From Emticicia agri (GTDB taxonomy: Bacteria; Bacteroidota; Bacteroidia; Cytophagales; Spirosomataceae): a stretch of DNA of 32,350 bases. The notes under the pieces were generated by a model. The model did no database searches and was not told the DNA's origin. It saw only the letters and a program-made list of their open reading frames with translations. Numbering within the stretch: the first letter of the stretch is position 1; each line of letters opens with the position of its first letter. Position numbers and translations under genes: made by a program. The stretch lies in assembly GCA_945860265.1 (NCBI GenBank), contig CAMAQF010000048.1, forward strand, positions 1 to 32,350. The letters run 5' to 3'. Below are positions 3,832 to 28,776 of the stretch, piece by piece.

Positions 3832-3860
3832 CCGCAAGTTTTATTTAATTTTCACATCTA
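3832..3860 (+). promoter_or_regulatory. Putative ECF-dependent autoregulatory promoter
   Basis: CCGCAAGTTTTA (3832-3843), 11 nt, CATCTA (3855-3860). GCAAGT to TCTA is 17 nt, the usual spacing of ECF -35 and -10 elements. The same two blocks with the same 11-nt gap stand at 5377-5405, and a close copy stands at 28776-28750 on the minus strand. No TANNTTTG element is visible here. The predicted transcript starts about 20 nt before the TTG start codon. Binding of this particular sigma factor is inferred. Confidence 0.7.
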
Positions 3861-3888
3861 TATTAATTAATTAAGAAAACCAACTTAT

Positions 3889-4464
3889 TTGGACGAAAAA
3901 CAATTCATTACTGATTTGCAGAAAGGCTCGCAAAGTGCTTTCCGCCACCTCGTTGATACATTTCAAAACAAGGTGTTTAATACGGTATTGTCTATTGTGC
4001 ACAACGATGAAGAAGCCGAAGATATATCTCAGGAAGTTTTTATTGAGATTTTTGAGTCAGTGGGTAAATTTAAGGGAGAAGCAAAGCTTTCAACATGGAT
4101 TTATCGAATAGCGACCAATAAAGCCATAGAGCATCATCGCCGAAAGAAAGCCAGTAAACGCTTTGCATTTCTGACGAGTCTTTTTGGTGAAAACGATGAA
4201 ATTGTGCATCATCCAGCTGATTTTGAGCACCCTGGGATTTTACTTGAAAACAAAGAACGAGCAAAATTATTATTTAAACATATTAACCAATTGACTGATA
4301 ATCAGAAGGTTGCTTTTACACTTTGTAATATAGAAGGACTAAATTATCAAGAAATATCAGATGTGATGCAACTGTCTATGTCGTCGGTTGAGTCATTATT
4401 ATTCAGAGCAAAAACAAATCTCCGAAAAACATTAAAAGAGTTTTATGTGAACCAAATTATATAA
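3889..4464 (+). CDS. ECF (RpoE-like) RNA polymerase sigma factor
   Basis: 191 residues, typical for an ECF factor with only regions 2 and 4. Region 2 is at about 19-88: FRHLVDTFQNKVFNTVLSIV, DISQEVFIEIFE (45-56, core binding) and LSTWIYRIATNKAIEHHRRK (67-86, -10 recognition). Region 4 is at about 130-182: LTDNQKVAFTLCNIEGL and YQEISDVMQLSMSSVESLLF, the helix-turn-helix that reads the -35 element. The start is a TTG, since no in-frame ATG or GTG precedes region 2 at a sensible distance. Four nucleotides separate it from the next gene and four more separate that from the third, so the three form an operon. Its own promoter carries the motif repeated before the YHYH operon, which suggests autoregulation. 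Confidence 0.92.
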   Translation: MDEKQFITDLQKGSQSAFRHLVDTFQNKVFNTVLSIVHNDEEAEDISQEVFIEIFESVGKFKGEAKLSTWIYRIATNKAIEHHRRKKASKRFAFLTSLFGENDEIVHHPADFEHPGILLENKERAKLLFKHINQLTDNQKVAFTLCNIEGLNYQEISDVMQLSMSSVESLLFRAKTNLRKTLKEFYVNQII

Positions 4465-4468
4465 GGTC

Positions 4469-4786
4469 ATGAAAAATCAAGAAGAAATTGAACGCCAAAT
4501 AGATGAAACCGTTGGAGCATTAGAAGGAATAGAACGAGCTGAACCTCGACCATTTTTTTATACTCGATTAGAGGCCAAAATGGATATTTCTGGAATGCAA
4601 CAATGCTATGCAATAATACCAAAGTTTATGGCACGGTCAACTTTTGTGTGGTCGTTTTTAGCTTTAGTTGTATTGCTGAATGTTGGGGTTGTGCTTCGAT
4701 TCAGCCAAAAAACAGTTTCAGAACCGCAAAATGCCAGTTCGTTTGCAAAAGAATATGGATTAAATACGCTCGATTCAAATTTATAA
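4469..4786 (+). CDS. Short membrane protein in anti-sigma position
   Basis: 105 residues. The N-terminal 50 residues are charged and probably cytoplasmic (MKNQEEIERQIDETVGALEG, then FYTRLEAKM). One transmembrane segment follows at about 55-77 (FVWSFLALVVLLNVGVVLRF), with a short tail of about 25 residues outside. Position and topology fit an anti-sigma factor for the ECF protein encoded just upstream. There is no HxxxCxxC zinc motif, so it is not a ZAS-type protein, and it is shorter than most. The transmembrane segment resembles that of the next gene product (both contain LLNVG after a Trp). The anti-sigma role is inferred from context. Confidence 0.6.
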   Translation: MKNQEEIERQIDETVGALEGIERAEPRPFFYTRLEAKMDISGMQQCYAIIPKFMARSTFVWSFLALVVLLNVGVVLRFSQKTVSEPQNASSFAKEYGLNTLDSNL

Positions 4787-4790
4787 TACC

Positions 4791-5321
4791 ATGAAAGATA
4801 ATTACAAATACAACATACTTTGGACAGCTTTAGGTGTGCTTTTGTTACTGAATGTTGGGTTGTTAGTTTGGATTAGTTTTTTCTCAAATAAACTTCCCGA
4901 TCAACCCAAACGATTATATTTAGAAACAGAGTTGAAGTTTGATGAAAAGCAAGCCGAAACTTACCGAAACCTACGCCAAGATCATGCCCAAAAAATGCGT
5001 AGTTTGCGTGAAAATGTAAAAGAAATGAAAAAGGCTTTCTATGCTGATTTAGGTAAACCTATTTTAGAAGATTCATTGAAGGCAAGAACAAAAAAAATAG
5101 AGAGTAAGATGGCCGAGGCAGATGTAATTACGTTTCGCCATTTTCATCAAATTCGCCAAATGTGTACACCCGCTCAGCAAAAGCATTTTGATGAGGTAAT
5201 TCTCGATTTAATTCGTTCTATCGAACGTCCAGGCTCTCAAGGCGGACCACACCAAGGAGGTCCACCGCCAAGAGACGGTCGCCCACCGTTGGATAATATG
5301 CCTCCACCGCCTGTCAGATAA
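4791..5321 (+). CDS. Periplasmic Spy/CpxP-like (heavy-metal sensor type) protein
   Basis: 176 residues. A signal anchor lies at about 8-30 (ILWTALGVLLLLNVGLLVWI). The rest is a largely helical, charged domain (LKFDEKQAETYRNLRQDHAQ, then a helix rich in K, E and R), with FRHFHQIRQMCTPAQQKHFDEV at about 117-138, which matches the LTxxQ-like motif of Spy/CpxP and metal-resistance sensor proteins. The C-terminus is a flexible Gly/Pro/Arg tail (GGPPPRDGRPP, PPPP). Proteins of this group in ECF operons bind or sense metal or misfolded protein outside the inner membrane and feed the signal to an anti-sigma factor. The one Cys and nearby His residues could bind metal, but this is not shown. Confidence 0.7.
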   Translation: MKDNYKYNILWTALGVLLLLNVGLLVWISFFSNKLPDQPKRLYLETELKFDEKQAETYRNLRQDHAQKMRSLRENVKEMKKAFYADLGKPILEDSLKARTKKIESKMAEADVITFRHFHQIRQMCTPAQQKHFDEVILDLIRSIERPGSQGGPHQGGPPPRDGRPPLDNMPPPPVR

Positions 5322-5376
5322 TATTTATGAAAATAATTTGCTAAATACTTGTCGAAACCATTTGGTGAAAAAAATA

Positions 5377-5405
5377 CCGCAAGTTTTAGAAATAAAATGC
5401 ATCTA
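5377..5405 (+). promoter_or_regulatory. Putative ECF-dependent promoter of the YHYH operon
   Basis: CCGCAAGTTTTA (5377-5388), 11 nt, CATCTA (5400-5405): 12 of 12 and 6 of 6 bases identical to the sigma gene's own promoter with equal spacing, while the 11-nt spacer differs. Both are followed by a TTAATTAATT stretch. The leader to the ATG at 5514 would be about 100 nt. Confidence 0.72.
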
Positions 5406-5513
5406 TTTAATTAATTTCAAAAAAACATTGACCAATAAATTATTCTATGGACTGAACTTTACGAGAAAAAACACTTTCAACTAGTTAATGTTTCACTTTA
5501 AAAATCAAGTACA

Positions 5514-6344
5514 ATGAAAAATTCAGTCATGTTTTTTGCAGTTCTAGTTTCCAATGTCATGCTTTTGGTTTCAGCATGTGGTAATGAGTCGAACTTATCA
5601 CCAAGTACAACATCGAGCCTCCCAACCACTAATTCGACTACCTCATCAACCGGTTCGAGTTCGACAACCACAACAACCGCCAATGCACTTACTTCGCTCG
5701 AAATTTTTAAGAAAGTTTATGGAGCAACGGAAGTCTATATCGAAGGGAATTACGCAATTATCAAAGCAAATGGTTTGCCAGACCATAAAAGTCCTTATTA
5801 TAAAGATACTCAGTGGGCAACCGCAAAGTATGAAGCTTACAACGGAGCGAATAATAAGTTTGCTTTAAATCCTAATAGAATTGTTTCACAAAGTTATGTT
5901 TTTAAGATTCCAATAAATCCAGCAAAAGCTTCAAATTCAAGTGCAACACCAGCTGGGCCGATTGGTATATCTCTTAATGGTGTTCCGTTTTATAATCAAT
6001 ATGCAGCCATGAATGCTCCTTTAACCAACGAAGCAAACGGTTTTGACCAATATAAAGGACATCCACAGCAACAAGGTCAATATCACTACCATGTTGAGCC
6101 AACTTACCTTACTGATCAAAAGGGGAAAGATGCACTTTTGGGTTTTTTGTTAGATGGGTTTCCTGTTTATGGGCCACTCGAAAAAGGTAAAACTGTAACC
6201 AATAGCGATTTAGATGGCTATCACGGACACTCGCACGCCACAACCGAATACCCAAACGGTATTTATCATTATCACATCACTGACGCAGATCCTTACATCA
6301 ATGGCAATGGTTTTTATGGCACGGCAGGCACTGTTTCTAAGTAG
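5514..6344 (+). CDS. YHYH-domain lipoprotein
   Basis: 276 residues. The lipoprotein signal ends in LLVSAC (Cys22), followed by a Ser/Thr-rich linker to about residue 60. The domain at about 85-276 carries two YHYH tetrapeptides (190-193 in GQYHYHVEP and 251-254 in GIYHYHITD), with LLGFLLDGFPVYGPL and LDGYHGHSHATTEYP between them. This is the YHYH family signature (PF14240 type). The many His residues suggest metal binding, but the biochemical role of the family is not established. The protein should sit in a membrane facing the periplasm or the cell surface. The next gene starts inside its last codons, so the two are probably translationally coupled, and a SCO1 gene follows. Confidence 0.88.
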   Translation: MKNSVMFFAVLVSNVMLLVSACGNESNLSPSTTSSLPTTNSTTSSTGSSSTTTTTANALTSLEIFKKVYGATEVYIEGNYAIIKANGLPDHKSPYYKDTQWATAKYEAYNGANNKFALNPNRIVSQSYVFKIPINPAKASNSSATPAGPIGISLNGVPFYNQYAAMNAPLTNEANGFDQYKGHPQQQGQYHYHVEPTYLTDQKGKDALLGFLLDGFPVYGPLEKGKTVTNSDLDGYHGHSHATTEYPNGIYHYHITDADPYINGNGFYGTAGTVSK

Positions 6345-6900
6345 TATTTTCCTATTGATAGCTGCTTGTAAGCAAGCAACTAAAATAAATACTCCGGAGA
6401 TAAAATTCGAAGCGAATTATGAGGCTTTTTCGCATAATCAAGGGGTATTACTTTACGAAAATAAACCTTTTTCGGGTGTTCAGTATCTACTTTTTACTAA
6501 TCAAGATACCGCAAAAGCTTCGACTTATATAGCAGGAAAGGAGCAGGGGTGGAGTAAAATTTGGTACGAGGATGGTCGATTAGCCGAAGAACGCTATTAC
6601 GAAAAAGGTAAAAAGGAAAATATACACCGTGCATGGTGGCCTGATGGAAAACTTCGTTTTGAGTATCATTTTAAAAACGATGAACATCACGGCCAGCAAA
6701 TAGATTGGTTTCCGAACGGAAAAATCGCTGAAATATTTCATTACATAAATGGGCACGAAGAAGGTCAGCAACAAATGTGGTTTGAGGATGGCTCTCTTAA
6801 AGCCAATTATGTCATAAAAAAAGGTCGCCGATTTGGCTTGCCAGGTGTAAAAAACTGTATTTCAGTGGTTGAAAACAATACTTTTCGAGCAAAAAAATGA
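6307..6900 (+). CDS. MORN-repeat lipoprotein (YwqK-like)
   Basis: About 197 residues from the ATG at 6307 (or 194 from 6316). The longer open frame to 6214 is out of place, because the lipoprotein signal ALFLSSIFLLIAAC begins right after these Met codons. The mature part has at least four MORN/toxin_YwqK-type repeats, recognisable by W(Y/F)xDGxL: WSKIWYEDGRLAEERYY, HRAWWPDGKLRFEYHF, QQIDWFPNGKIAEIFHY and QQMWFEDGSLKANYV. It overlaps the YHYH gene by 38 nt, and its stop overlaps the SCO1 start as ATGA, so the three genes form one tightly coupled operon. 'Antitoxin' annotations of this family are by name only; a binding or scaffold role is as likely. Confidence 0.8.
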   Translation: MVFMARQALFLSSIFLLIAACKQATKINTPEIKFEANYEAFSHNQGVLLYENKPFSGVQYLLFTNQDTAKASTYIAGKEQGWSKIWYEDGRLAEERYYEKGKKENIHRAWWPDGKLRFEYHFKNDEHHGQQIDWFPNGKIAEIFHYINGHEEGQQQMWFEDGSLKANYVIKKGRRFGLPGVKNCISVVENNTFRAKK

Positions 6901-7586
6901 TATTTAAAATTATAAATAATACTCCCCCTTTAAGTGGGGCAGGGAGATGTAAATATATTTGTATTCTTTTTCTGGCATTGAGTGCTTGCCAACCCAAAGA
7001 GCAAACTCAAATAGAAAACTTACCTTATTACAATACAGCTGAATTTACACCAAAATGGTACACAAAAAAACAACTTGATACACTAAAATTGCATAAAATT
7101 GCTGATTTTAGTTTTATTGACCAAGATGGTAAAAAAGTATCAAGCGGTAGCGTTAGAGGTAAAATTTATGTGGCAAATTTTTTCTTTACCATTTGTCCGA
7201 GTATTTGTCCAACTATGACACAAAATTTATTGGTTGTACAGCATACATTTAAAAATGATGCTGATATTTTGATGCTTTCGCATTCAGTTATGCCTACTAC
7301 CGATATCGTAGCTCAACTGAAAAAATACGCCAATCGCTGGAAAATTGATTCTCAGCGATGGCATTTACTCTCTGGCGAAAAAGAAAAAATTTATGAATTA
7401 GCTCGTCAATCGTATTTTGCCGAAAAAGAAATTGGTTTACAGAAAGACAAAAATGAGTTTCTTCACACTGAAAATGCTTTTTTGATTGATAAAAACGGCT
7501 ACATTCGTGGGGTTTACAACGCTACATTAGCACTCGATGTCGAAAATTTGGTGAAAGATATTAAAGTTTTACAGGCAGAACTCTAA
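6897..7586 (+). CDS. SCO1/SenC-family copper chaperone lipoprotein
   Basis: 229 residues. Lipoprotein signal with LALSAC (Cys31). The thioredoxin-like SCO domain spans about 65-225. The copper site is visible as CPSIC (Cys100 and Cys104) with the partner His190 in FLHTENAFLIDKNG. SCO proteins bind Cu(I)/Cu(II) and mature the CuA site of cytochrome oxidase or act in redox control at the membrane. It starts on the ATGA overlap with the MORN gene. Oddity: residues 8-17 (NTPPLSGAGR), before the hydrophobic core of the signal, are encoded by an imperfect palindrome (6922-6946) that looks like an inserted repeat. Being in the putative ECF operon, it may serve metal stress rather than oxidase assembly. 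Confidence 0.9.
   Translation: MIFKIINNTPPLSGAGRCKYICILFLALSACQPKEQTQIENLPYYNTAEFTPKWYTKKQLDTLKLHKIADFSFIDQDGKKVSSGSVRGKIYVANFFFTICPSICPTMTQNLLVVQHTFKNDADILMLSHSVMPTTDIVAQLKKYANRWKIDSQRWHLLSGEKEKIYELARQSYFAEKEIGLQKDKNEFLHTENAFLIDKNGYIRGVYNATLALDVENLVKDIKVLQAEL
6922..6946. repeat. C/G-rich imperfect palindrome inside the SCO1 signal peptide
   Basis: CTCCCC on the left and GGGG..GGGAG on the right surround a CTTTAAGT centre. The block is GC-rich within AT-rich DNA and is translated as TPPLSGAG. It resembles a short dispersed repeat that landed in the frame without breaking it. Confidence 0.5.
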
Positions 7587-7593
7587 AAAATCA

Positions 7594-7601
7594 TAACTTT
7601 G
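7594..7601 (+). promoter_or_regulatory. -7 element (TAACTTTG) for the tricorn protease
   Basis: TAACTTTG lies just after the SCO1 stop codon and fits TANNTTTG. A T-run at 7567-7570 is the only candidate upstream element, 23 nt away. The leader would be about 40 nt. It indicates that the protease is transcribed on its own. Confidence 0.5.
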
Positions 7602-7649
7602 TTAGCAAAACAGGGCAATATCTTTAGCCCTTCAACAAACTAACGCTAT

Positions 7650-10600
7650 ATGAAAAAAACTATCCTAACTGCAGTATTTCTTGCCTGCACAAGCCTTTTT
7701 TTACAAGCACAAAACAATTTACTGCTTCGTCAGCCAGCCATCAATAAAGATGGGTCGCTAGTGGCATTTTCGTTTCAAGGCGATATTTGGACTGTGCCAA
7801 GTTCGGGTGGAAAAGCTTCTCGCTTAACTATCCATGAAGCCTATGAAGGCAATCCAGTTTTTAGTCCAGACGGCACTCAAATTGCATTTTCGGGAGCAAG
7901 ATTCGGTAATAACGATATTTTTGTAATGCCAACCGAAGGCGGAATGCCTAAACGCCTAACTTTCCATTCAGGCTCAGATAATATTTCAAGTTGGACACAA
8001 GCTGATAAGATTGTATTTTCTACAAACCGAGAGTTTAAGCAAATCGAACGCCCTAACGAAGTTTACGCAATCAGCCCAAAAGGAGGTACTGAGTATCGTA
8101 TTTTAGATGCTGTTGGGTTCGACCCCATCTATTCACCAGATGGCCGATACATTGCTTTTGTGCGTGGTGATATTAATCCGATTGCTCGCCAAGGCTATAA
8201 AGGAAGTTCTAATCGTGACCTTTGGCTCTATGACACTCAAAACAAAACTTTTCAAAAATTACCAGGTTTTGAGACAAACGATGTTCTTCCACAATGGTTT
8301 GGTAGCAATACTTTATATTTTTTGAGCAGTAATGAAGGTGCTTATAATATTTATCGACTAAATATCGCTACTAATGGCAAGTTTTCTGATAAACCTGAAA
8401 AACTAACGAGTTTTAAAGACGAATCAATAAGAGCTTTTAGTGTTTCAACCGACGGAAAAACAATAGTTTTTGATAAAGATATGAATCTTTATACGCTTAA
8501 AACCAGCGGAGGTTCGGCTCAAAAACTTAACATACAAATTAGTGCCGACGAACGGCTAGATGCTACCGAACTAAAAACATTTACGTCAGGAGCAAATCAA
8601 TACGCAGTTTCGCCCAATGGCAAATTGTTGGCTTTTTCTATTCGTGGAGAAATCTTTTTGAAAGAAGCAGATAAAGAAAAATCAAGAAGCATAAATGTTT
8701 CCGAGCATCCATTTCGTGATGTCGAGCCAACTTGGTTGAATGATTCTACGCTTCTTTTTAGTAGCGATAGAGCCAACGGAAATTTTGATATTTACATGTT
8801 TCGTTCGTCCGATTCAACTCAACGAAATATTTTCAAATCGCTCAAACACGAACTTGTGCAAATTACCAAAAATCCGAATGATGAAACCTGTTTGAATGTT
8901 TCGTCAGATGGTAAAAAAATTGCTTATGTGCGTGGACGTGGCACTTTTGTAGTAGCTGATATTATGGCTGATGGGAAATTATCTAATGAAAAAATATTGA
9001 ATGAGAGTTGGGCATCACCTCGCGGTATCGTGTGGAGTCCTGATAATAAATGGTTAGCTTATTCGATCGAAGATTTATATTTCAACGAAGAAGTTTTTAT
9101 TCACGCCGCTGATAATTCTTCAAAACCGGTCAATGTATCAATGCACCCACGAGGCGATGGTCGCCCATTTTGGAGTGCTGACGGCTCAAAATTAGGTTTT
9201 ATTTCTGAGCGAAGCGTAGGCCGTAGTGGCGATGTTTGGTTTGCGTGGCTCAAAAAAGAAGATTGGGAAAAAGAAAGCCAAGATTGGCAAGAGCGTGAAA
9301 CACCAGCCGAAGCTGCACCAGCAAAACCAAATGATAAAAAAGATAAAACTCCGAAGCCAATTAAAATTGATTTCGATAAAATCTATGAGCGTGTAGTGCA
9401 AGTAACCAACTTTTCTGGTGATGAAGGTGACCTTATTATCTCGAAAGATGGAGAAACTTTCTTTTACACAACAAATAGCAGCAATGCCAAAGGCCGCGAC
9501 TTATTTAGTATAAAGTGGGACGGAAAAGATTTGAAGGAAATCACTAAGGGAGGCTCAAATCCGAGCGGAGTTTCGATAGATAAAGACGGCAAATATTTAT
9601 ATTACAGCCGTCAAGGGGCTTTGGCTCGTATCGATATAAAATCGAGTGTTTCGGAAAATTTGCCTTTCGTTTCAAAAATGAAAGTTGATTATAACGCCGA
9701 ACGTACGCAAGTTTTTGAAGAAGCATGGCGTACTATCCGTGATGGTTTCTATGACCCTAAATTCCATGGAAATGATTGGGCGAAATTGCATGATAAATAC
9801 AAAGAACGTTGTGTAAATGCCAGCACGAGCAATGATTTTAGAGATATGTTTAACCTCTTGTTAGGCGAACTTAACTCAAGCCACACAGGGCTAACCGTAA
9901 GCGACCGTGCCGAAACACAACGTGAAGCAACAGGGCTTTTAGGTGCAGAAATTATGCCTGTGAGTGGTGGTGTAAAAATTAGTCATATTGTGCCAGAAAC
10001 TCCAGCAGATAAAGAAAAAAGTAAGCTCAATGAAGGTGATGTAATTACTGCCGTTAATGGTGAGGTTATAGCTGAAAATGCTAATTTTCACGAATTATTG
10101 AATGGTTTGGTGAATGAAAAAGTTTTATTAACTGTAAAAGCAGCTGACGGAAAAACGCGTGAAGTAGCTTTGCGACTTACGGCCAATATTTCTAATAATT
10201 TATATAATGAGTGGGTAGAAAACCGCAAGAAATTGGTGGAAAAATACTCAAATGGCCGTTTAGGGTATATTCATATCAAAGGCATGGATTTTCCGAGTTT
10301 TGAGGTGGTTGAGCGTGAATTTGCAGCGGCGGGCTACGGAAAAGAAGGTTTATTGATTGATGTTCGTTACAATGGTGGTGGCTCAACAGCCGATTATTTA
10401 ATGACGATTCTGAACTACAAACAACACGCCTACACAATTCCGAGAGGAGCGAGCAATGATTTGGAGAAAGATAAATTGAAGTTTAAAGATTATTATCCAA
10501 CGGGCGAACGCTTAGTCTATGCCGCTTGGACAAAACCCTCTATTGCTCTGTGTAATGAAGGGAGTTATTCAAACGCAGAAATCTTCTCTCACGCTTATAA

Positions 10601-10865: not shown

Positions 10866-10872
10866 TTTTTTT

Positions 10873-10909
10873 AAACGTCGGCATTAGAAATTTTGCCGAC
10901 GTTTTTTTT
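10873..10909 (+). terminator. Rho-independent terminator after the tricorn protease gene
   Basis: 10-bp stem AAACGTCGGC (10873-10882) / GCCGACGTTT (10895-10904), followed by a T-run to 10909. Confidence 0.9.
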
Positions 10910-11111
10910 ATTGGGAATTTTGTCGTAAACCTTAAAAGTCAGATGAGTGTGGTTTGGCTAAATGTTCAAAATTGACTCAGTGAGTTCGGCTTTCTCTAAA
11001 CGCATCTTCACAATGCCGTTTTGAAAATGGCTGAAAAAATTACAGAATTAAATTTCTGACAAGCTGGAAGTGCACTAACACTATTACTAATAATTCTGAT
11101 TTTTAGGGAAT

Positions 11112-11158
11112 AAAAAAAACCGTAGTTGCTTAATTATCAGCATATTACGGTTTTTTTT
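11112..11158. terminator. Bidirectional terminator hairpin beside the tRNA
   Basis: AAAAAAAACCGTA (11112-11124) pairs with TACGGTTTTTTTT (11146-11158). A-tract on one side and T-tract on the other allow termination on both strands; on the minus strand it ends the tRNA transcript. Confidence 0.75.
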
Positions 11159-11169
11159 AATACTTAGAG

Positions 11170-11253: not shown

Positions 11254-11270
11254 AAATCTCTTTGGGTTTG

Positions 11271-20578: not shown

Positions 20579-20688
20579 CAAATTGCACACCAATTATTTT
20601 AGTCCACAAATAAAAAAAATGAAAAGATATATAGGATTTAATAGCTATACTAATAATTTTATAAAATTATACATTTAAAAAATTTTCA

Positions 20689-22182
20689 ATGAATGTTATA
20701 AAAAAACAAGCTTTTCTAGGTACAATTTTCTCTTATGGAGGGGTGATGATTGGTTTTATTACGCAGTTCTTTCTAATTGGAAACTATCTTGAACCCGCTC
20801 AAAATGGAATTATGGCAGTTTTACTTTCCTACATGTATGTGCTGGTTCAACTTTCGTCTTTGGGTTTCAATGCCGCAGGTAGTCGTTTTTTTCCACATTT
20901 CAGAAATGCTAAAAACGGCCATAATGGTTATCTTTTTTTAGGGCTTTCGGTCGGAATTGTTGGTTTTATAATTACTACTATCGGCTTAGTTTTGCTCAAA
21001 AATACGATCATCCAAAACGAAGAAAACTTTACGCTTTTTGCAGACAATTTCTACTTTTTATTGCCCCTTACATTCGCTACGCTTCTTTTCAATTTACTTG
21101 ATAATTACGCCAAAAACCTTTATGATACCGTCACAGGGACCTTTTTAGCTCAGTTTTTGCAAAGATTACTTCAATTAGTGGCTATTTTATTTATTGTATT
21201 TCAAATTGTTGATTTTCAGCAGTTTATGTACCTATGGGTGTTTTCGGTATCTTTTTATGTAGTGCCGATGCTCTGGAAAGCGAGCAAACTCGAAGGATTT
21301 TCGCTAAAACCAAATTTTTCGGTGATGACACCCGCTTTTAATAAAGAATTTGGTTTTTATAGTTTCTTGACAATTCTGACTGGCTTTTCGTCGATGGTAA
21401 TTTTATATATAGATAAAATCATGTTGGCAGGAATTACGACTTTTTCAGAAACTGGAATTTATAACACAGCATCGTTTTTTGGAAGTGTAATGGGAATGTC
21501 GCTTTTGGCAGTCAATAAAGCTGCCCAACCGCTCATCGCCGATTCGTTTGCAAAAAATGATTTAGAGAATATTTCTAAAATTTATAAGAAAAGTTGCACT
21601 ACGGCTTTGATTGTCGGTTGCTGGATTTTTCTAGGAATTTATCTCAACATTGATAATCTTTTTCTTTTCCTAAAACCCGAATATTCGGCAGGCAAAATGG
21701 TAGTAATCATTATCTGTCTTGGCAAACTTTTCGATTTGGCAACTGGACTAAACGGCACGATTCTGACGCTATCAAAATACTATATTTATGACACTTACAT
21801 CATGGTTGGCTTGATTATCATAACGGTTTCACTCAACTATTTTTTGATACCGATTTATGGCATGAATGGTGCAGCTATTGCTTTTGCTTTTGCAACAGTT
21901 TATTATAATTTAGCCCGTTTTTTAGTGGTTTTATTCAAACTCAGAATGCAACCTTTATCTTTTGATTTGGTAAAAATCATCATCGTTTCGTGTATTATTG
22001 GTCTGATTATTAGCTATTTACCTAATATTAGCGGAAATAAACTAATGACGACAATTGATATGGGGTATCGCTCAATAATTTTAACATTCATTTACGGTAG
22101 CATAATTTATTGGAGCAATATCTCGCCAGAATTGAACGGTGCAATGGAGAATTTATGGCTGAAAGTAACTAAGTTTTTCTGA
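20689..22182 (+). CDS. Polysaccharide flippase (Wzx/MOP superfamily)
   Basis: 497 residues with about 12-14 transmembrane helices. The N-terminus KKQAFLGTIFSYGGVMIGFITQFFL and the repeats LDNYAKNLYDTVTGTFLAQFLQRLLQL, FSSMVILYIDKIMLAGI and INKA/VNKAAQPLIADSF are typical of the polysaccharide biosynthesis (PST) branch of the MOP family. Such proteins flip undecaprenyl-linked oligosaccharides to the outer face of the inner membrane. The gene is divergent from the methyltransferase-wecE unit. A weak hairpin follows its stop, shared with the convergent dehydrogenase gene. Confidence 0.9.
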   Translation: MNVIKKQAFLGTIFSYGGVMIGFITQFFLIGNYLEPAQNGIMAVLLSYMYVLVQLSSLGFNAAGSRFFPHFRNAKNGHNGYLFLGLSVGIVGFIITTIGLVLLKNTIIQNEENFTLFADNFYFLLPLTFATLLFNLLDNYAKNLYDTVTGTFLAQFLQRLLQLVAILFIVFQIVDFQQFMYLWVFSVSFYVVPMLWKASKLEGFSLKPNFSVMTPAFNKEFGFYSFLTILTGFSSMVILYIDKIMLAGITTFSETGIYNTASFFGSVMGMSLLAVNKAAQPLIADSFAKNDLENISKIYKKSCTTALIVGCWIFLGIYLNIDNLFLFLKPEYSAGKMVVIIICLGKLFDLATGLNGTILTLSKYYIYDTYIMVGLIIITVSLNYFLIPIYGMNGAAIAFAFATVYYNLARFLVVLFKLRMQPLSFDLVKIIIVSCIIGLIISYLPNISGNKLMTTIDMGYRSIILTFIYGSIIYWSNISPELNGAMENLWLKVTKFF

Positions 22183-22195
22183 TAAAACATTGAAA

Positions 22196-22228
22196 AAACG
22201 TGGTACAACTCAAAGATTTGCCACGTTT
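22196..22228. terminator. Hairpin between convergent genes
   Basis: AAACGTGG (22196-22203) pairs with CCACGTTT (22221-22228). It lies between the stops of the flippase and the sugar dehydrogenase. T- and A-tracts are short, so strength is uncertain. Confidence 0.55.
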
Positions 22229-22246
22229 CGTTCGTTATTGAAAACA

Positions 22247-23434
22247 TTACTTTTTGGCCAAAGTATAAATTTTCCCACTGCTATAGTTCAAGATATAAAT
22301 CTCGCCATTGGCATCTTGCCCAAAAGCTGAAACAGCACCGACATTCGTAATTAACTCATTTTTTGTGACGGTTTTTCCATCATAAGTCAAAACCCAGATT
22401 CTTCCGCTTATGTAATCTCCACAGAAATATTTCCCCACTAAATCAGCAAATTTCTTGCCTCTGTAAACAACTCCGCCTGTTACCGAACGTCCTTCAGCAC
22501 CATTTATATAACTCCAAACTGGAGCAATCAAATCGGCTCGTGAGCAATCACCTGAATAACAATCATTACCTTCTTTCACTTTCCAACCGTAATTTCCACC
22601 TTTCGTAATAATATCAATCTCCTCTACTTTATTTTGTCCAACATCGCCAGTCCACAAATCCTTCGTAACTGAATCGAAGCTAAAACGCCACGGATTTCTT
22701 AGTCCAAACGCAAAAATCTCTTCACTAAAACCCTGTGTATTAGCAGTATATGGATTGTCTTTTGGAATACCATAATTTCCTTTATTAGTCGTATTTACAT
22801 CAATTCTAAGCATTTTTCCTAGAAGACTAGCTCGGTTTTGAGCGTAATTCTGTGGGTCGCCACTACTACCACCGTCGCCAGTTGCTATGTATAAAAAGCC
22901 ATCCCCACCAAAGGAAATTTGCCCACCCTTATGATTAGTATAAGGTTGATCAAAAGTCAATAAAATGGCTTCGCTACTCGGGTCAGCAGTTTGACCATTA
23001 GCTTTAAATCGCGAAATTACTGTCTGACGACGTGGCGAATTTCGGGTATAATTCACAAAGAAAAGACCGTTATTCTTAAAATCTGGGTGAAAAGCCAAAC
23101 CCAACAAACCCATTTCTCCGCCTGAAGAAACACGACCCATAAGATCTAAAAATACCGATTTTGTTTCAGCGTTGGCGTTATTTTCAAAAGTTTGAATTAC
23201 ACCTCTTTGCTCAACTACAAACAATCGGTTTGAGCCATCGTTGGCAAGAGTAAAATCAACAGGAGAATTAAAAGATAACTTTGGAAAGGCCTCGACGGCC
23301 TGATAAGAAACAGATACTGAAGGAACGACCACTACTATTGGTGAAGTTGTGGGAGAATCATCCGCTTCTTTACAGCTGATAGTCAAAAAAGAAATAAAAC
23401 TATAAAAGCCAATGATAACAAACGTTTTTTTCAT
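22247..23434 (-). CDS. PQQ-dependent sugar dehydrogenase-like lipoprotein
   Basis: 395 residues. Lipoprotein signal ending ISC (Cys21). The rest is a six-bladed beta-propeller of the glucose/sorbosone dehydrogenase (GSDH) family: SPVDFTLANDGSNRLFVVEQRG, GLLGLAFHPDFKNNGLFFVNY, NHKGGQISFGGDGFLYIATGDGG, FGLRNPWRFSFD and GDVGQNKVEEIDI. Members related to soluble glucose dehydrogenase and Yli oxidise sugars or sorbosone with PQQ; many Bacteroidota copies are uncharacterised. No PQQ biosynthesis gene is in the window. It is convergent with the flippase and divergent from the glycosyltransferase, so it is a single-gene unit within the glycan region. Confidence 0.88.
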   Translation of the reverse strand: MKKTFVIIGFYSFISFLTISCKEADDSPTTSPIVVVVPSVSVSYQAVEAFPKLSFNSPVDFTLANDGSNRLFVVEQRGVIQTFENNANAETKSVFLDLMGRVSSGGEMGLLGLAFHPDFKNNGLFFVNYTRNSPRRQTVISRFKANGQTADPSSEAILLTFDQPYTNHKGGQISFGGDGFLYIATGDGGSSGDPQNYAQNRASLLGKMLRIDVNTTNKGNYGIPKDNPYTANTQGFSEEIFAFGLRNPWRFSFDSVTKDLWTGDVGQNKVEEIDIITKGGNYGWKVKEGNDCYSGDCSRADLIAPVWSYINGAEGRSVTGGVVYRGKKFADLVGKYFCGDYISGRIWVLTYDGKTVTKNELITNVGAVSAFGQDANGEIYILNYSSGKIYTLAKK

Positions 23435-23589
23435 TATAAAAATTTATTTATTAACTCAATAACGAAAAAATACATTTGTATGTTTTATTAAACAATAGAA
23501 TAAAACTTACTAAAAGTTAATAAATCTTGTAGATTTTCCGTAAAAAATCTTATAATTTGCAATCAATTAATCAACGTTTTTATTTTGTC

Positions 23590-24891
23590 TTGAAAATTCT
23601 ACTTATCAATACCGACGATGCCATGGGTGGAGCAGCTATTGCTTGCCTGCGTTTATTGGCTATTTTGGAGCAAACCGAAGGCATTGAAGTAACAATGTTG
23701 GTACAAGAAAAAAAACGAGATAATCCAAACGTCAAAGCAATTGCCAAAACTTGGCTACAAAAAAAACTGGCTTTTGAACGTTTCGTAAGAGAGCGATTAT
23801 ATTTCAATTTTCAAGAAAAAAACAAGGAAATCAGGTTTGCATTTTCACCTGCTAATTCAGGTATTGATATTTCAGAGCATCCGCTAGTGCAAGAGGCAGA
23901 AATTATTCATTTGCATTGGATTAATTTTGGGTTTTTATCATTAAAATCACTTGAAAAACTTTTTGCACTTAATAAACCAATCGTCTGGACACTGCACGAT
24001 ATGTGGGCATTTACGGGTGGATGTCACCATAGTGGCGACTGCGAAAACTACGAAGATTCTTGCGGGAATTGTGTTCAATATCTCAAAAATCCATCACCGA
24101 CTGATTTGTCGAATAAAGTTTGGCAGCGGAAAAATGCAATTCTCGACCATTCCATTCGACTTCGCTCAAAACACAACATTACAATAGTTGGATGTAGTCA
24201 TTGGTTAAGTAATCGGGCAAAAAATAGTAGTTTGTTTAAAGATTTTTTGGTAAATACGATTCCAAATCCATTAGATACGAGTGTATTTTCGCCACAAAAT
24301 AAGGCTGAAGCAAGAATAAAACTAGGCCTACCGATTGATAAAAAACTAATACTTTTTGTTGCAGCAAAGGTTTCGGTTATTTGGAAAGGGTTTAGTTATT
24401 TTAAAGAAGCTTTGGAGATTTTAAAAGTACAACATTTTCAACATCAAGAGATTGAATTAGTGATTTTGGGAGAATGTGATGGCGAAACTATTCAAAAATT
24501 ACCTTTTAAGGCTCACTCATTGGGTAGAATCTCTGATGTTAATCAAATTGTTTCAGTCTATTCTGCGGCCGATGTTTTTGTTACTTCTTCAATACAAGAA
24601 AATCTACCAAATACAATCATGGAAGCAATGGCTTGTGGTACGCCTGCCGTTGGTTTTGAAGTTGGTGGAATTCCAGAAATGATTGAAAGTTATAAAAACG
24701 GAATGCCGTCCAGCGGTTTCTTAGCAAAATACAAATCAACGAAAAGTTTAGCAGAAGGAATGAAATGGATTTTGTTTGAAGCAAACCATGAGGAATTATC
24801 AAAAAATGCTCGTCAAAAAGTGATAGATAATTATTCCGAAGAAGTGGTGGTTGGAAAGTATTTGGAGGTTTATAGAAGCATGACCTTGTAA
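23590..24891 (+). CDS. Glycosyltransferase family 4
   Basis: 433 residues from the TTG at 23590, which gives MKILLINTDDAMGGAA, the standard GT4 opening; a longer frame from 23557 would add 11 residues unlike the family. The N-terminal Rossmann domain includes WTLHDMWAFTGGCHHSGDCENYEDSC, a Cys/His-rich loop common in this GT4 group. The C-terminal domain has ILFVAAKVSVIWKGF, ELVILGEC, YSAADVFVTSSIQENLPNTIMEAMACGTPAVGFEVGGIPEMI, the nucleotide-sugar site with E-x7-E. It would add a sugar to a surface glycan in the cytoplasm; the donor is unknown. A degenerate TAATTTG element lies at 23553-23559. Confidence 0.9.
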   Translation: MKILLINTDDAMGGAAIACLRLLAILEQTEGIEVTMLVQEKKRDNPNVKAIAKTWLQKKLAFERFVRERLYFNFQEKNKEIRFAFSPANSGIDISEHPLVQEAEIIHLHWINFGFLSLKSLEKLFALNKPIVWTLHDMWAFTGGCHHSGDCENYEDSCGNCVQYLKNPSPTDLSNKVWQRKNAILDHSIRLRSKHNITIVGCSHWLSNRAKNSSLFKDFLVNTIPNPLDTSVFSPQNKAEARIKLGLPIDKKLILFVAAKVSVIWKGFSYFKEALEILKVQHFQHQEIELVILGECDGETIQKLPFKAHSLGRISDVNQIVSVYSAADVFVTSSIQENLPNTIMEAMACGTPAVGFEVGGIPEMIESYKNGMPSSGFLAKYKSTKSLAEGMKWILFEANHEELSKNARQKVIDNYSEEVVVGKYLEVYRSMTL

Positions 24892-24920
24892 ATCGTTATT
24901 GCTTTTTCTAGTGCAACAGA

Positions 24921-26147
24921 TTACAAACCTATTATACAAAAATCGGCTATTTCTTCATAAGCTTTCAGCACATTTTTTTGTAAATCCGTATTTAGTTTTT
25001 GAGCATTTTGTTTTTTATGGTTCAAATCTTCGGCTGTCAAATTACTCAAATATTCTCTAATCTTTTCGCCCAAATCACCTTGTTCGTTAATTAGCCAAGC
25101 AGCCTCTTGGAGCATATCCCAATTATCACTTTCTTGACTTCCACAAAACAAAATGGCTCCGCCTGCGGCAACGGCACTCACTGCTTTTGACGGAATCATC
25201 AAATGGGTATATTTTGTAAGTAGACTTACTAAATGCACATCTAAAAAGTTTAATTGACTTCGTGGCACATTCGGTAAAACTGTAATTCCATCATAGTTTT
25301 TAGCAAATTCAAGCACATTTTGAGCTTTTTTACCGTATAAAGCCAAAATCAAATGATGCTTTTTGGGGTCAAAAGCTTTGATAAATGCTATCAGAAACCC
25401 TTCGTTATGAGCATCATTCAGATTACCACAATAGCCAAAATAGATTTTTCCATCTAACTTCCGCCACGTAGGCAACTGACTATCATAAGTCTGATGAAAA
25501 ATTACTCCGCAAGGAAGAATTGTAGTATCTAATTTATCTATTGACTTTTGAGCGGAACGCTGTACACTATGGATTGTAAACTGTTTGTTATATTTTTCCA
25601 CTAAAACCTCCGCCTGCTTTCGCCCCAGTGCAATCAATTTATTTGGAGCATTTTTGTATGTTTTCTTCAAAAACCACTGATAAACTACGTTTCCCTTGGC
25701 AATCATTCCAATCGCAAGGAAGGCTTCTGGAAATAAATCCATTGACCACAAAGCCCATTTCTGTTCGGGCGGCGTTCCGTCGGGCGGCGTTCCGTTTTTG
25801 AGCAACATTGAAGCCCAAAATGGCAATAAAGGTGGGCTTGTCATTACTATAATTGCAGCCCTTTTGTCAATTTTCCTAGCTTTCCGGATAAGTATTAAAC
25901 CTTCCAAAAAACCCGCTAATTGCTTCAAAGCCTTGTTTTTTCCTTCATAAATACTTGATAATGTATGTACTATACCCAAAGGTTCACGCTTAGCACCGCC
26001 ACCATCGTCGTTACCTTCGATGTGTACGATATGCACCTCGACTTGATATTTTTCGATGAGATATTTGGCCAAATCCCAAGCAGATTCTCCCGTGATTCCA
26101 GGGTTTGGTGGGTAGTGGCGATTAACTATGATAACTTTTCGATTCAT
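24921..26147 (-). CDS. Glycosyltransferase (WbuB-like GT4) with an inserted repeat
   Basis: 408 residues. The N-terminus KVIIVNRHYPPNPGITGESAWDLAKYL and the segment VMTSPPLLPFWASMLL...WSMDLFPEAF are typical of WbuB/WcaI-like glycosyltransferases. The C-terminal half has GYCGNLNDAHNEGFLIAF, GITVLPNVPRSQL and HLMIPSKAVSAVAAGGAILFCG, consistent with a GT-B donor site, though the usual E-x7-E is weak. Between LLKN and QKWALW the residues GTPPDGTPPE are encoded by two tandem copies of a 15-bp GC-rich repeat, an unusual in-frame insertion. The start overlaps the stop of the upstream beta-barrel gene as ATGA, so the two are translated together. Confidence 0.85.
   Translation of the reverse strand: MNRKVIIVNRHYPPNPGITGESAWDLAKYLIEKYQVEVHIVHIEGNDDGGGAKREPLGIVHTLSSIYEGKNKALKQLAGFLEGLILIRKARKIDKRAAIIVMTSPPLLPFWASMLLKNGTPPDGTPPEQKWALWSMDLFPEAFLAIGMIAKGNVVYQWFLKKTYKNAPNKLIALGRKQAEVLVEKYNKQFTIHSVQRSAQKSIDKLDTTILPCGVIFHQTYDSQLPTWRKLDGKIYFGYCGNLNDAHNEGFLIAFIKAFDPKKHHLILALYGKKAQNVLEFAKNYDGITVLPNVPRSQLNFLDVHLVSLLTKYTHLMIPSKAVSAVAAGGAILFCGSQESDNWDMLQEAAWLINEQGDLGEKIREYLSNLTAEDLNHKKQNAQKLNTDLQKNVLKAYEEIADFCIIGL
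25766..25795. repeat. Two tandem 15-bp GC-rich units inside the glycosyltransferase frame
   Basis: CGGGCGGCGTTCCGT occurs at 25766-25780 and again at 25781-25795. Its first 14 bases are the reverse complement of the intergenic core at 13664-13677. Because the unit is 15 bp, each copy adds five residues (GTPPD/E) without shifting the frame. Confidence 0.85.
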
Positions 26148-26986
26148 TCAACTTGGCTCTGATATTTATAACCTCTTGCAAGGTCTAATCTAATTAAGAG
26201 TCCAAAATTATAACTTATTCCTTTCAAAGACTGCCTTGCTTCACCAATTTTATTTGAATTTTGTGTATAAACCAAATCCGAATACAAACCTCCACTCGGT
26301 GCAAAATTTATTCTGCCAAATAAACTGATGTAAAATCCATTGGTCACACGGCCTTGAAGCTCAGTTTGTAGCTCAAAAGCCGCAAAGAGCTTTTTAGTGG
26401 TGAATGACTCAGAAATTAATCTTATTGTATCTCTTTTTGAGGCATTGCCCATCACACCAGTAAACGTTCTAGTATAAACCAGTCGCGGTTTAGCATTGGT
26501 ATTCAACAAAACCCCGCATCCCACATACATGGCGGCATTTTTAGTAATCCTATCAAGATTTAAGACTTTATATTTATATCTGAGCGGTATTGTGTTGAGT
26601 ATAGTTCCGATACGGTAAGTAAATGGAACGCCCCTACCAGAGACAACAGTTTGAATAAAACTGGCAGGATTTTTTAAATACCCAGTCTCAATTGCCCATT
26701 TATTATCAGAATTAAAACCTATTGAAATACCCCATGAAAAATCATTATTGTTTTGACTACTTACTATATTTCCAATAGAATTGCTCAGCGACGCATAATT
26801 GAGTTTAAAGCCACCTTCAAGCCCTAAATATAGACTCACTGCTTTACGGTCAAGATTTGGGTAGGTATTATTTCTGACATCCAAGCGTTTACTGGGTGGT
26901 TTATAATAGTCCTCGTCTTCCTGGGCCTTCAACTCAGTGAAAATACCTGTTACTAAGAATAAAAATAAGAATATTGATTTCATCAT
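26144..26986 (-). CDS. Outer-membrane beta-barrel protein (PorT-like fold)
   Basis: 280 residues from the ATG at 26986. The signal peptide is MKSIFLFLFLVTGIFTELKAQ. The mature protein consists of alternating amphipathic strands (VSLYLGLEGGFKLNY, WGISIGFNSDNKWAIETGYL, IPLRYKYKV, AAMYVGCGVLLN, FYISLFGRINFAPSGG, ISYNFGLLIRLDL), as in small outer-membrane beta-barrels of Bacteroidota. The open frame extends to 27124, but a TAGTTTTG element at 27008-27001 puts transcription start below that, and the signal peptide fixes the start at 26986 or 26983. It is coupled to the downstream glycosyltransferase by an ATGA overlap. The function is unknown. Confidence 0.75.
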   Translation of the reverse strand: MMKSIFLFLFLVTGIFTELKAQEDEDYYKPPSKRLDVRNNTYPNLDRKAVSLYLGLEGGFKLNYASLSNSIGNIVSSQNNNDFSWGISIGFNSDNKWAIETGYLKNPASFIQTVVSGRGVPFTYRIGTILNTIPLRYKYKVLNLDRITKNAAMYVGCGVLLNTNAKPRLVYTRTFTGVMGNASKRDTIRLISESFTTKKLFAAFELQTELQGRVTNGFYISLFGRINFAPSGGLYSDLVYTQNSNKIGEARQSLKGISYNFGLLIRLDLARGYKYQSQVE

Positions 26987-27000
26987 TCTGTAAATATTTC

Positions 27001-27008
27001 CAAAACTA
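27001..27008 (-). promoter_or_regulatory. -7 element (TAGTTTTG) for the beta-barrel gene
   Basis: Minus-strand TAGTTTTG fits TANNTTTG, with a TTG about 23 nt upstream (27034-27032). The transcript would start about 10 nt before the chosen ATG. Confidence 0.45.
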
Positions 27009-27158
27009 CTAACAAAGACGACATCCGTAAACAAAAAGTTGTTTGCAATACAAAACGAGATTTTATTTAGCAAAGAAAAAATATAATTTTTCAATGTATT
27101 TTTAATAAATAACGGAATAAACATAGTAGTATTTCGTGATGAAAGCGAAAAGAAAATT

Positions 27159-27166
27159 TATATTTG
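27159..27166 (+). promoter_or_regulatory. -7 element (TATATTTG) for pgk
   Basis: TATATTTG fits the consensus; only TTTC (27132-27135) lies near the expected upstream position. The leader to 27268 is about 95 nt. Confidence 0.45.
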
Positions 27167-27267
27167 TAAAAAGATTATTAAAAAACTTTTTATAATGTTT
27201 GAGCCGTAAAAAATGAGTAAATTTACTTATTTGCTCAAACGCCATTCACTATAATATTCATTATTGA

Positions 27268-28455
27268 ATGAAAACCTTAGACACGTACGATTTTTCGGGT
27301 AAGAAAGCCCTCATCAGAGTAGATTTTAACGTACCTCTCAATGATAAGTACGAAATTACAGATGATACTCGTATCTCTGCCACGATTCCAACAATCATGA
27401 AAATCTTGAAAGATGGTGGTTCATGTATCTTAATGTCTCACCTAGGCCGTCCTAAGGATGGTCCAACCGAAAAATACTCTCTCAAACACTTAGTAAATCC
27501 ACTTTCGGTGATTTTAGGCTTACAAGTAAAATTTGCAGATGATTGCATCGGAGCATCGGCTATCGAACAGGCTGCAAATCTTAAAGCTGGTGAAGTTCTT
27601 TTGCTCGAAAACCTTCGTTTTTATAAAGAAGAAGAAAAAGGGGATGTTGTATTTGCTGAAAAACTATCGAAACTTGGTAATGTTTGGGTAAATGACGCCT
27701 TTGGCACTGCTCACCGAGCTCACGCTTCTACGGCTGTAATAGGTCAATTTTTTGCTGAACGTGTTTGTGGCTATGTGATGCAAGCCGAAGTTGAGAACGC
27801 CGAAAAAATCTTAAATCATGCCGAGCGTCCGTTTACGGCCATCATGGGTGGTGCAAAAATTTCGGATAAAATCTTATTAATTGAGCGTTTGTTGGATAAA
27901 GTTGATAACCTCATCATTGGAGGAGGTATGACTTATACTTTCACAAAAGCACAAGGGGGAGCAATCGGAAAATCGCTTTTAGAAGCAGATAAAATGCCTT
28001 TGGCCTTGAAACTCATAGAAAAAGCAAAAATAAAAGGTGTAAATCTTATTATGCCGCTTGACAATGTTTGTGGTGATAAATTTTCGAACGATGCCGATCG
28101 AATGACGGTAGCCACAGGTCAAATTGATGACGAATGGGAAGGTTTTGATATTGGCCCTGAATCAGTGAAACTTTTTACTGAAACCATTTTAAAATCAAAA
28201 ACTATCCTTTGGAATGGGCCAATGGGCGTATTTGAATTTCCTAATTTTGCGACAGGTACAAACGCTATCGCCGAGGCTGTAGTAAAAGCAACTGAAGAAA
28301 ACGGTGCATTCTCACTAATCGGTGGTGGAGATTCAGCTTCGGCTATCAACAACGCTGGTTTCGGCGACCGTGTTTCTTATGTTTCAACAGGAGGCGGTGC
28401 ATTACTTGAATACATGGAAGGCAAAACTTTGCCAGGTGTAGCTGCTCTTTACTAA
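27268..28455 (+). CDS. pgk: Phosphoglycerate kinase
   Basis: 395 residues, full length for the family. It transfers a phosphate between 1,3-bisphosphoglycerate and ADP in glycolysis. Motifs in order: ALIRVDFNVPLND (15-27), SHLGRPKDG (about 60), LLENLRFYKEEEKGD (about 112-126), DAFGTAHRAHAST (about 148-160), GGAKISDKILLIE, IIGGGMTYTFTKAQG, GPMGVFEFPNFATGT and SLIGGGDSASAI at the nucleotide site. It is a single-gene unit ended by a strong terminator. Confidence 0.98.
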   Translation: MKTLDTYDFSGKKALIRVDFNVPLNDKYEITDDTRISATIPTIMKILKDGGSCILMSHLGRPKDGPTEKYSLKHLVNPLSVILGLQVKFADDCIGASAIEQAANLKAGEVLLLENLRFYKEEEKGDVVFAEKLSKLGNVWVNDAFGTAHRAHASTAVIGQFFAERVCGYVMQAEVENAEKILNHAERPFTAIMGGAKISDKILLIERLLDKVDNLIIGGGMTYTFTKAQGGAIGKSLLEADKMPLALKLIEKAKIKGVNLIMPLDNVCGDKFSNDADRMTVATGQIDDEWEGFDIGPESVKLFTETILKSKTILWNGPMGVFEFPNFATGTNAIAEAVVKATEENGAFSLIGGGDSASAINNAGFGDRVSYVSTGGGALLEYMEGKTLPGVAALY

Positions 28456-28602
28456 ATTGAATATTTGTGTAATCGATGACACAGCAGGTATTTTATTTTA
28501 CTTTTGATACAACCCTGTCTTTACAACGAATTAAAAAAATCCCCGTACTTATACGGGGATTTTTGTTTATTTTTAATTAGATAAGGAAATAAATGTTGAA
28601 AA
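28456..28602. other. Intergenic stretch holding the pgk terminator
   Basis: Between pgk and the small minus-strand gene there is only the hairpin at 28535-28565, which can end both transcripts. Confidence 0.6.
28535..28565. terminator. Bidirectional terminator after pgk
   Basis: AAAAATCCCCGTA (28535-28547), loop CTTA, TACGGGGATTTTT (28552-28564): a perfect 13-bp stem with A- and T-tracts. It serves pgk (plus) and the small membrane protein (minus). Confidence 0.92.
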
Positions 28603-28716
28603 TTACCAAATCGTAACGTTAGTAAAATACAGACCAATAGCAACAGCTAAGGTTAGGCCGCTGATTAATAATAATTCAGCATACTTAATTGATTCAGATT
28701 TAGCTAGTTTGTTCAT
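28603..28716 (-). CDS. 37-residue single-pass membrane protein, putative ECF regulon member
   Basis: The frame from ATG (28716-28714) to TAA (28605-28603) encodes 37 residues: a hydrophilic start (MNKLAKSESIKYAE), one transmembrane helix at about 15-31 (LLLISGLTLAVAIGLYF) and a short end TNVTIW. Lys3, Lys6 and Lys11 suggest an N-in orientation. I do not recognise the family. Two facts argue that it is real: the pgk terminator closes its transcript, and 34 nt upstream, at correct orientation and spacing, stands the same bipartite promoter as before the ECF sigma gene (GCGACTTTTA-N11-CATCTA, 28776-28750). Small membrane proteins of this kind often modulate a transporter, oxidase or sensor. Confidence 0.65.
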   Translation of the reverse strand: MNKLAKSESIKYAELLLISGLTLAVAIGLYFTNVTIW

Positions 28717-28749
28717 AAAATTTCAATTTGGTTTATATGGAATATTTAT

Positions 28750-28776
28750 TAGATGTAATTTTTAAATAAAAGTCGC
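28750..28776 (-). promoter_or_regulatory. Third putative ECF-dependent promoter
   Basis: On the minus strand GCGACTTTTA begins at 28776 and CATCTA occupies 28755-28750. The distance from GC to CATCTA is 21 nt, the same as at 3834/3855 and 5379/5400. Compared with the sigma promoter, positions GC.A.TTTTATTTAA and ACATCTA agree. The start codon lies 34 nt downstream. Confidence 0.62.

Follow-up and report, generated by a model that had tools for sequence, protein, structure and literature searches.

A candidate CnrYXH-like sigma factor module and its bipartite promoter motif in Emticicia agri and related Bacteroidota

Described systems and the Emticicia locus

In Cupriavidus metallidurans, a CnrY–CnrX complex holds the extracytoplasmic function (ECF) sigma factor CnrH until nickel or cobalt releases it, and CnrH then transcribes its own operon, cnrYXH, together with the adjacent cnrCBAT (according to the parts of PMC4803752 and PMC9045368 drawn on here). 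Copper-linked ECF regulation with a multicopper oxidase target, CuoB, has been described for CorE of Myxococcus xanthus, and CorE-like factors are controlled through a Cys-rich C-terminal extension and not by an anti-sigma factor, as far as the part of PMC10141476 used here goes. In this study we analysed a 32,350-nucleotide stretch of DNA from Emticicia agri (contig CAMAQF010000048.1 of assembly GCA_945860265.1, hereafter the window), which is one of the 174 contigs of a 4.43-Mb draft genome. Judging from the sequence, positions 3832–7586 quite likely form a self-contained ECF signalling module that resembles CnrYXH and is probably copper-responsive. It consists of genes for an ECF sigma factor, a candidate anti-sigma factor and a periplasmic sensor, followed by a proposed target operon encoding YHYH-domain, MORN-repeat and SCO1/SenC-family proteins, with a copy of the same bipartite promoter motif before each of the two gene groups.

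The likeness to CnrYXH lies in the set of components, an ECF sigma factor, a short membrane anti-sigma factor (here a candidate) and a membrane-anchored periplasmic sensor, which in the window is predicted by modelling to have the CnrX fold. It appears to extend to the promoters, since one serves the regulators and one the adjacent target operon, as described in the sections of PMC4803752 and PMC9045368 used here and as read in the window from sequence. The two systems differ in gene order, which is sigma–anti-sigma–sensor here instead of Y-X-H, as well as in gene neighbourhood, and whereas the target in C. metallidurans is an efflux pump of the resistance-nodulation-division type, the targets here would be a multicopper oxidase, SCO1, YHYH proteins and a peroxidase. 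The sensors also differ, in that the place of CnrX Met123 is taken by Val or Ile in all of the 40 sensors surveyed in the family, while a Cys four residues further on is kept in all 40, and a sequence search with the window sensor finds CnrX only at an expect value (E) of 0.08. By analogy, these comparisons suggest that the system works like CnrYXH; it is at best a putative member of that group, because the metal ligands of CnrX, which we take to be H42, H46, E63, H119 and M123, are not conserved as a set and the candidate anti-sigma factor has no family.

Unlike CorE, the window sigma factor ends soon after region 4, which is matched to residue 180 of 191, and it is followed by genes for a membrane protein and a sensor; since the roughly 11 residues beyond region 4 include no Cys, CorE membership was rejected. 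Its only Pfam matches are sigma-70 regions 2 and 4 (PF04542 and PF08281), and the general ECF model TIGR02937 is the one NCBIfam model above its cut-off, the best scores otherwise falling, below cut-off, to RpoE/SigW-type families; the nearest solved relatives are likewise of the RpoE/SigW/sigma-H type. The RpoE consensus has a similar ECF look to the promoter discussed below. Different from RpoE/SigW-type systems are the −35 element, GCAAGTTTT/GCAGGTTTT, and the candidate anti-sigma factor, for which searches of Pfam, NCBIfam and solved structures gave nothing. In CnrYXH-type systems a short class II anti-sigma factor with one transmembrane helix binds the sigma factor; the window protein has 105 residues and, by eye, one hydrophobic segment. 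We infer an anti-sigma role for this protein from its position and architecture, and an FFYTRL-like motif is common among its orthologues. The sigma gene has a TTG start codon, which may keep translation of the sigma factor low. Of the 37 loci, window included, at which the match extends to residue 1, 27 have TTG in this position and 10 have ATG.

The promoter motif before the sigma factor gene and the YHYH operon

The original prediction held that three bipartite sites in the window, identical in spacing, define the regulon of the sigma factor at 3889. Read directly in the sequence, the three sites are there as described: sites 1 and 2 (CCGCAAGTTTTA-N11-CATCTA) start at 3832 and 5377 on the plus strand, and site 3 (GCGACTTTTA-N11-CATCTA) runs from 28776 to 28750 on the minus strand. 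The pattern first proposed has exactly three exact matches in the 4.43-Mb genome, every one inside the window, and its reversed control has none, while at up to two mismatches there are 11 matches as against 18 for the control, so that the signal is confined to exact sites. It is only because of site 3 that this pattern has the degeneracies R and S. Relative to the core GCAAGTTTT-N12-CATCTA, site 3 is one of 21 sites in the genome with two mismatches, and because sites with zero to two mismatches number 25 versus 28 for the reversed control, chance is far exceeded by sites 1 and 2 but not by site 3 on its own. A matrix scan of both window strands revealed no fourth site close to the three (next score 9.5, compared with 14.5). 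Four sites in the genome score at least 14 on the core; one is intragenic, and the other three are intergenic and each lies 5′ of a gene, encoding the sigma factor (28 nt), the YHYH protein (108 nt) and a multicopper oxidase (44 nt), respectively. Sites scoring 13 number 21 and lie for the most part in reading frames (16), with four in intergenic regions, site 3 among them, and one unplaced.

Conservation was assessed at 41 loci, comprising the window and 40 stretches around an orthologous sensor gene from 39 family relatives (the top of 79 sensor-positive genomes among 200 from the family). The 15-position core was searched in the 160 nt 5′ of the sigma start codon, with 8200 dinucleotide shuffles as control. 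The site before the sigma gene, P1, scored 15/15 in 21 loci, at least 14 in 26, at least 13 in 28 and at least 12 in 36, while the same thresholds were reached by 0, 1, 6 and 48 shuffles (0.6% at the lowest). In 35 of the 36 loci scoring at least 12/15 the site lies 21–34 nt from the start codon, and in one 80 nt. The motif at orthologous sigma genes can be written CCGCARGTTTT-N12-CAYCTAA: in the 38 sites scoring at least 11/15 there is almost no variation within C-G-C-A-R-G-T-T-T-T and C-A-Y-C-T-A-A, while most positions of the spacer are variable. The core columns helped to select these sites, but the flanking C on the 5′ side and A on the 3′ side did not, and they are present in 38/38 and 35/38, respectively. 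As the loci are related, they do not represent 41 independent cases. Alignment of orthologous upstream regions, one of the checks proposed with the original prediction, thus upholds the motif before the sigma gene.

The second copy, P2, was searched in the 450 nt 3′ of the sensor gene and scored at least 14/15 in 12 of 40 loci and at least 13/15 in 21, all eight Emticicia loci being among the sites of 13–15/15. P1 and P2 vary in step. A −35 variant, GCAGG in place of GCAAG, occurs together with CACCTA, TACCTA or GACCTA before 12 sigma genes, and in 10 of these loci both promoters carry GCAGG (nine with P2 at 13/15); in L126 both end in GACCTA, and in L102 and L128, which have a GCAGG-type P1, P2 was not found. 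On the sequence pattern, P1 and P2 evolve together. The A/G variant of the −35 element also tracks residues 57 (S/T), 166 (S/A) and 172 (F/H) of the sigma factor, of which the last two lie inside the region-4 match. P1 as an autoregulatory ECF promoter, with P2 as its second copy before the YHYH operon, is well supported by these comparisons, and to this extent the regulon originally predicted stands.

The motif follows the presence of the system. All eight Emticicia genomes with the sensor have P1 and P2 at no more than one mismatch, and the three with no sensor match have no exact site, a single one-mismatch site being found in one of them. Across the genus (11 genomes) there are 16 exact core matches, 14 of them at the sigma locus; the remaining two, before a multicopper oxidase gene and a di-haem-peroxidase-like gene, are both in G128. 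Across the 200 family genomes, the pattern first proposed gave 16 exact matches and its control 5, while a stricter pattern, GCARGTTTT-N12-YAYCTAA, gave 58 in 37 genomes, with 10 for its reversed control. For 39 of these 58 matches a sensor gene is no more than 2.5 kb away, and the sensor is present in 33 of the 37 motif-bearing genomes versus 46 of the 163 others (Fisher test, 6e-12). The window genome is itself unmatched by the stricter pattern, because a T follows both its sites. Both in the window genome, where three of the four strong matches are intergenic, and in the family, where matches concentrate at the sigma locus, the genome-wide scan agrees with what was expected of a promoter. 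One relative, G065, harbors two copies of the sigma–anti-sigma–sensor–YHYH locus (L110 = G065:C15 and L120 = G065:C23), each with both promoters.

A wider genome scan returned at least 20 loci, of which five belong to the genus and 15 come from Chitinophagaceae, Sphingobacteriaceae, Flavobacterium and other metagenome-assembled genomes (MAGs). Among the matches listed, 14 of the 15 non-genus loci have a sigma match, and in Flavobacterium aciduliphilum (L247) an exact motif is located 18 nt 5′ of the sigma gene. On a contig of a Candidatus Edwardsbacteria MAG (L254), a sigma gene with 50% identity adjoins a sensor-like gene, which suggests that the module occurs outside the Bacteroidota, or else a binning error.

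The sensor and the targets away from the sigma locus

Features of the window that are considered in this study (positions in the 32,350-nucleotide stretch)
Feature	Position	Strand	Remarks
Promoter P1, CC-GCAAGTTTT-N12-CATCTA	3832..3860	+	28 nt 5′ of the sigma start codon; conserved motif
ECF sigma factor, 191 amino acids, TTG start	3889..4464	+	Pfam Sigma70_r2, r4_2
Candidate anti-sigma factor, 105 amino acids, one hydrophobic segment (by eye)	4469..4786	+	Position and architecture
Membrane-anchored periplasmic sensor, LTXXQ/Metal_resist family, predicted CnrX-like fold	4791..5321	+	Pfam; model
Promoter P2, motif as P1	5377..5405	+	108 nt 5′ of the YHYH gene
YHYH-domain lipoprotein-like gene, first in the proposed target operon	5514..6344	+	Pfam PF14240
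MORN_2-repeat lipoprotein-like gene	6214..6900	+	Listed start of the open reading frame overlaps YHYH; true start probably further in
SCO1/SenC-family protein (copper-chaperone family)	6897..7586	+	Pfam PF02630
37-codon gene, conserved small protein, one hydrophobic segment	28606..28716	−	Downstream of site 3
Site 3, GCGACTTTTA-N11-CATCTA	28750..28776	−	ECF-like geometry; probably not a target of the sigma factor at 3889

The sensor was modelled with AlphaFold2 from a 20-sequence alignment (mean predicted local distance difference test score 79.6, predicted template modelling score 0.55); a single-sequence model, for which the former score was 59, was discarded. Its N-terminal helix, residues 3–32, is hydrophobic by eye. 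When the model was used as a Foldseek query, ranks 1–14 were all CnrX (template modelling score on the target 0.69–0.75, E 1.3e-3 to 1.2e-2), followed by NccX at rank 15 and then by CpxP and ZraP. H117 and C125, the latter being the Cys mentioned above, are found in 40/40 family sensors and H65 in 35/40; in a wider set of sensors at least 90%, though not all, have C125. The YHYH protein gave no match among solved structures.

The third strong site of the genome escaped the original prediction because it is outside the window, on contig C31, where GCAAGTTCT-N12-CATCTA precedes a gene for a 498-residue multicopper oxidase (Pfam Cu-oxidase_2 and _3), with a MORN lipoprotein gene next downstream. 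In a survey of 30 loci, drawn from matches in 47 genomes, the motif scored 13–15/15 before all seven Emticicia orthologues and 15/15 in one other genus (G119), and it was absent before 11 paralogues and before one copy within a sigma locus (G097). In the last case (L111 = G097:C362) the multicopper oxidase gene lies inside the sigma/YHYH locus, where MORN-like and SCO1-like matches also occur, two of each, an arrangement that supports a shared function. By sequence conservation, the copy before the multicopper oxidase gene is well supported as a better third site than site 3.

In the family, 19 exact matches to the stricter pattern lie away from a sensor gene, of which 18 were inspected (G035:C290 was left out). 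A plausible target follows in 12 cases: two multicopper oxidase genes, five di-haem-peroxidase-like genes, one YHYH–MORN–SCO1 operon (recognized by eye), one EF-hand gene (scanned), one sigma gene and genes for two small secreted proteins that have no Pfam match. Among the peroxidase-like genes, that of L170 was identified as CCP_MauG by scan, and the other four were recognized on visual inspection, from resemblance and their CxxCH motifs. The six other matches are probably background, since those in G163, G039, G176 and G021 are within reading frames and those in G035:C199 and G051 have no fitting gene.

Proposed circuit, rival readings and significance

In the circuit that we propose, the sensor with its CnrX-like fold and the short candidate anti-sigma factor with its single transmembrane segment would together keep the sigma factor inactive, until a metal in the periplasm, most likely copper, signals its release. 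The freed sigma factor would read CCGCARGTTTT-N12-CAYCTAA and activate transcription of three operons, namely its own (from P1), the YHYH–MORN–SCO1 operon (from P2) and the distant multicopper oxidase–MORN operon, and site 3 would stay outside the regulon. One can presume from the sequences that the sigma factor at 3889 reads the motif directly, and copper is presumed to be the inducing signal since the targets multicopper oxidase and SCO1 point to it.

Several observations weigh against this circuit. Five of the 41 loci have no site of at least 12/15 5′ of the sigma gene, and the covariation of the −35 variant with sigma residues is confounded by clade. Within the genus, matches with zero or one mismatch are weakly enriched (38 versus 21 for the reversed control), so that single-mismatch sites are not trustworthy alone. 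Among the matches listed outside the genus, only one site of 14 is exact (that of F. aciduliphilum), a Bacteroidia MAG (L251) reaches 13/15 and the other 12 score 8–11. The motif is also absent before 10 more distant orthologues of the multicopper oxidase (66–74% identity), and a matrix trained on relatives scores the site before the oxidase gene of the window genome at 13.8, which is not above the 14.5 of site 3; as the matrix score does not separate the two, the assignment of the oxidase relies on conservation among orthologues. With regard to the sensor, no Foldseek match reached E ≤ 0.001, and among the presumed CnrX ligands only H119 has a clear counterpart by sequence, H117.

That the sigma factor at 3889 reads site 3 as well as the other two window sites, as originally proposed, we consider decidedly unlikely, although the spacing of site 3 is the same, its CATCTA is perfect, its matrix score is on a par with that of the oxidase site, and in some relatives the orthologous gene has a comparable two-part element equally far upstream. 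Within GCAAG, site 3 deviates at the third base (A) and the fifth base (G), and the C otherwise found 5′ of this block is missing. These positions are held in 37, 38 and 38 of the 38 sigma-gene sites, respectively, and only the C is outside the selection score; two-mismatch sites occur, moreover, at background frequency. The promoters of the orthologous 37-codon genes contain a TGTGRCTTYT...CRTCYAA-like element or nothing similar, and with the matrix from 37 sigma-gene sites of relatives they score −1.7 to −17 in nine relatives (a tenth, G118, was omitted, as a contig end cuts the region). The gene itself, which by eye lies between phosphoglycerate kinase-like and saccharopine dehydrogenase-like genes and whose product has no NCBIfam match, is present in all 11 genomes of the genus, including the three without the sensor. 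Site 3 was accordingly rejected as a regulon member on the non-conservation in orthologues and the violated invariant positions, not on its matrix score, and from sequence it is probably not a target of the sigma factor at 3889; this part of the original prediction is not supported.

It could also be that the motif does act as a promoter but for a different sigma factor of the cell, which would have the sigma gene at 3889 as just one of its targets. Bacteroidota genomes contain many ECF factors, and four of the 37 motif-bearing genomes have no sensor match, although in one of the four, G095, a sigma gene lies 21 nt downstream of the site. We nevertheless hold this to be highly improbable, given that two-thirds of the exact family matches lie at this very locus, that motif presence follows system presence, and that the motif variants track residues of this particular sigma factor, two of them in its region-4 match. 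Self-regulation combined with a second promoter for an adjoining operon, moreover, matches what is described for CnrH in the parts of PMC4803752 and PMC9045368 used here. A different doubt concerns the signal, which could be envelope or oxidative stress and not copper, with the CnrX-like protein acting as a chaperone regulator of the Spy/CpxP type. Membership of the sensor in the LTXXQ family, the di-haem cytochrome c peroxidase among the distant targets in relatives, and the presence of CpxP and ZraP among the fold matches, below CnrX, would fit such a role. We regard it as rather unlikely in view of the multicopper oxidase and SCO1 among the targets, the retention of H117, C125 and, in most family sensors, H65, and the fact that CnrX occupies the top of the fold search.

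The layout conserved before the 37-codon gene means that site 3 may be a promoter of some other ECF factor. In relatives (L056–L058 and L060) this gene is preceded by a second ECF-like promoter type, about GTGRCTTYT-N12-CRTCYAA, and related GTTACTTCT-N12-GCGTCTAA sites are found in G074 (twice), G118 and G094 (L275, L284 and L266). With at most one mismatch, this type has 44 matches in the 11 genomes, the promoters of the 37-codon gene included, versus 21 for the reversed control, and it is possibly the motif of another ECF factor.

A literature search, made mostly by title, revealed no paper on the circuit proposed here or its promoter, although a predicted motif for the ECF group may be in print; titles alone were searched for YHYH function, and none was found. 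A class I anti-sigma factor is encoded near only 6% of the ECF factors in Bacteroidetes, and other anti-sigma classes or modes may dominate, according to the part of PMC7406223 drawn on here. The Emticicia locus is a concrete candidate for such another class, with a short anti-sigma factor and a CnrX-fold sensor, a promoter code found over many genera and a small predicted target set. It offers a first idea of what YHYH proteins might do and a metal response in Bacteroidota that can be tested. More tentatively, and with the odds in our view slightly against it, the locus could represent a circuit that is widespread in Bacteroidota. In it, periplasmic copper would be sensed by a small anti-sigma factor of an undescribed class together with a sensor of the CnrX fold whose metal site has been re-tooled to His/Cys, a Cys replacing the Leu in the second LTXXQ motif, and the two would drive, via one conserved promoter code, a compact regulon for copper oxidation and delivery that comprises multicopper oxidase, SCO1, YHYH proteins, MORN lipoproteins and di-haem peroxidase. 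If this is true, the YHYH proteins would be a new copper-handling family.

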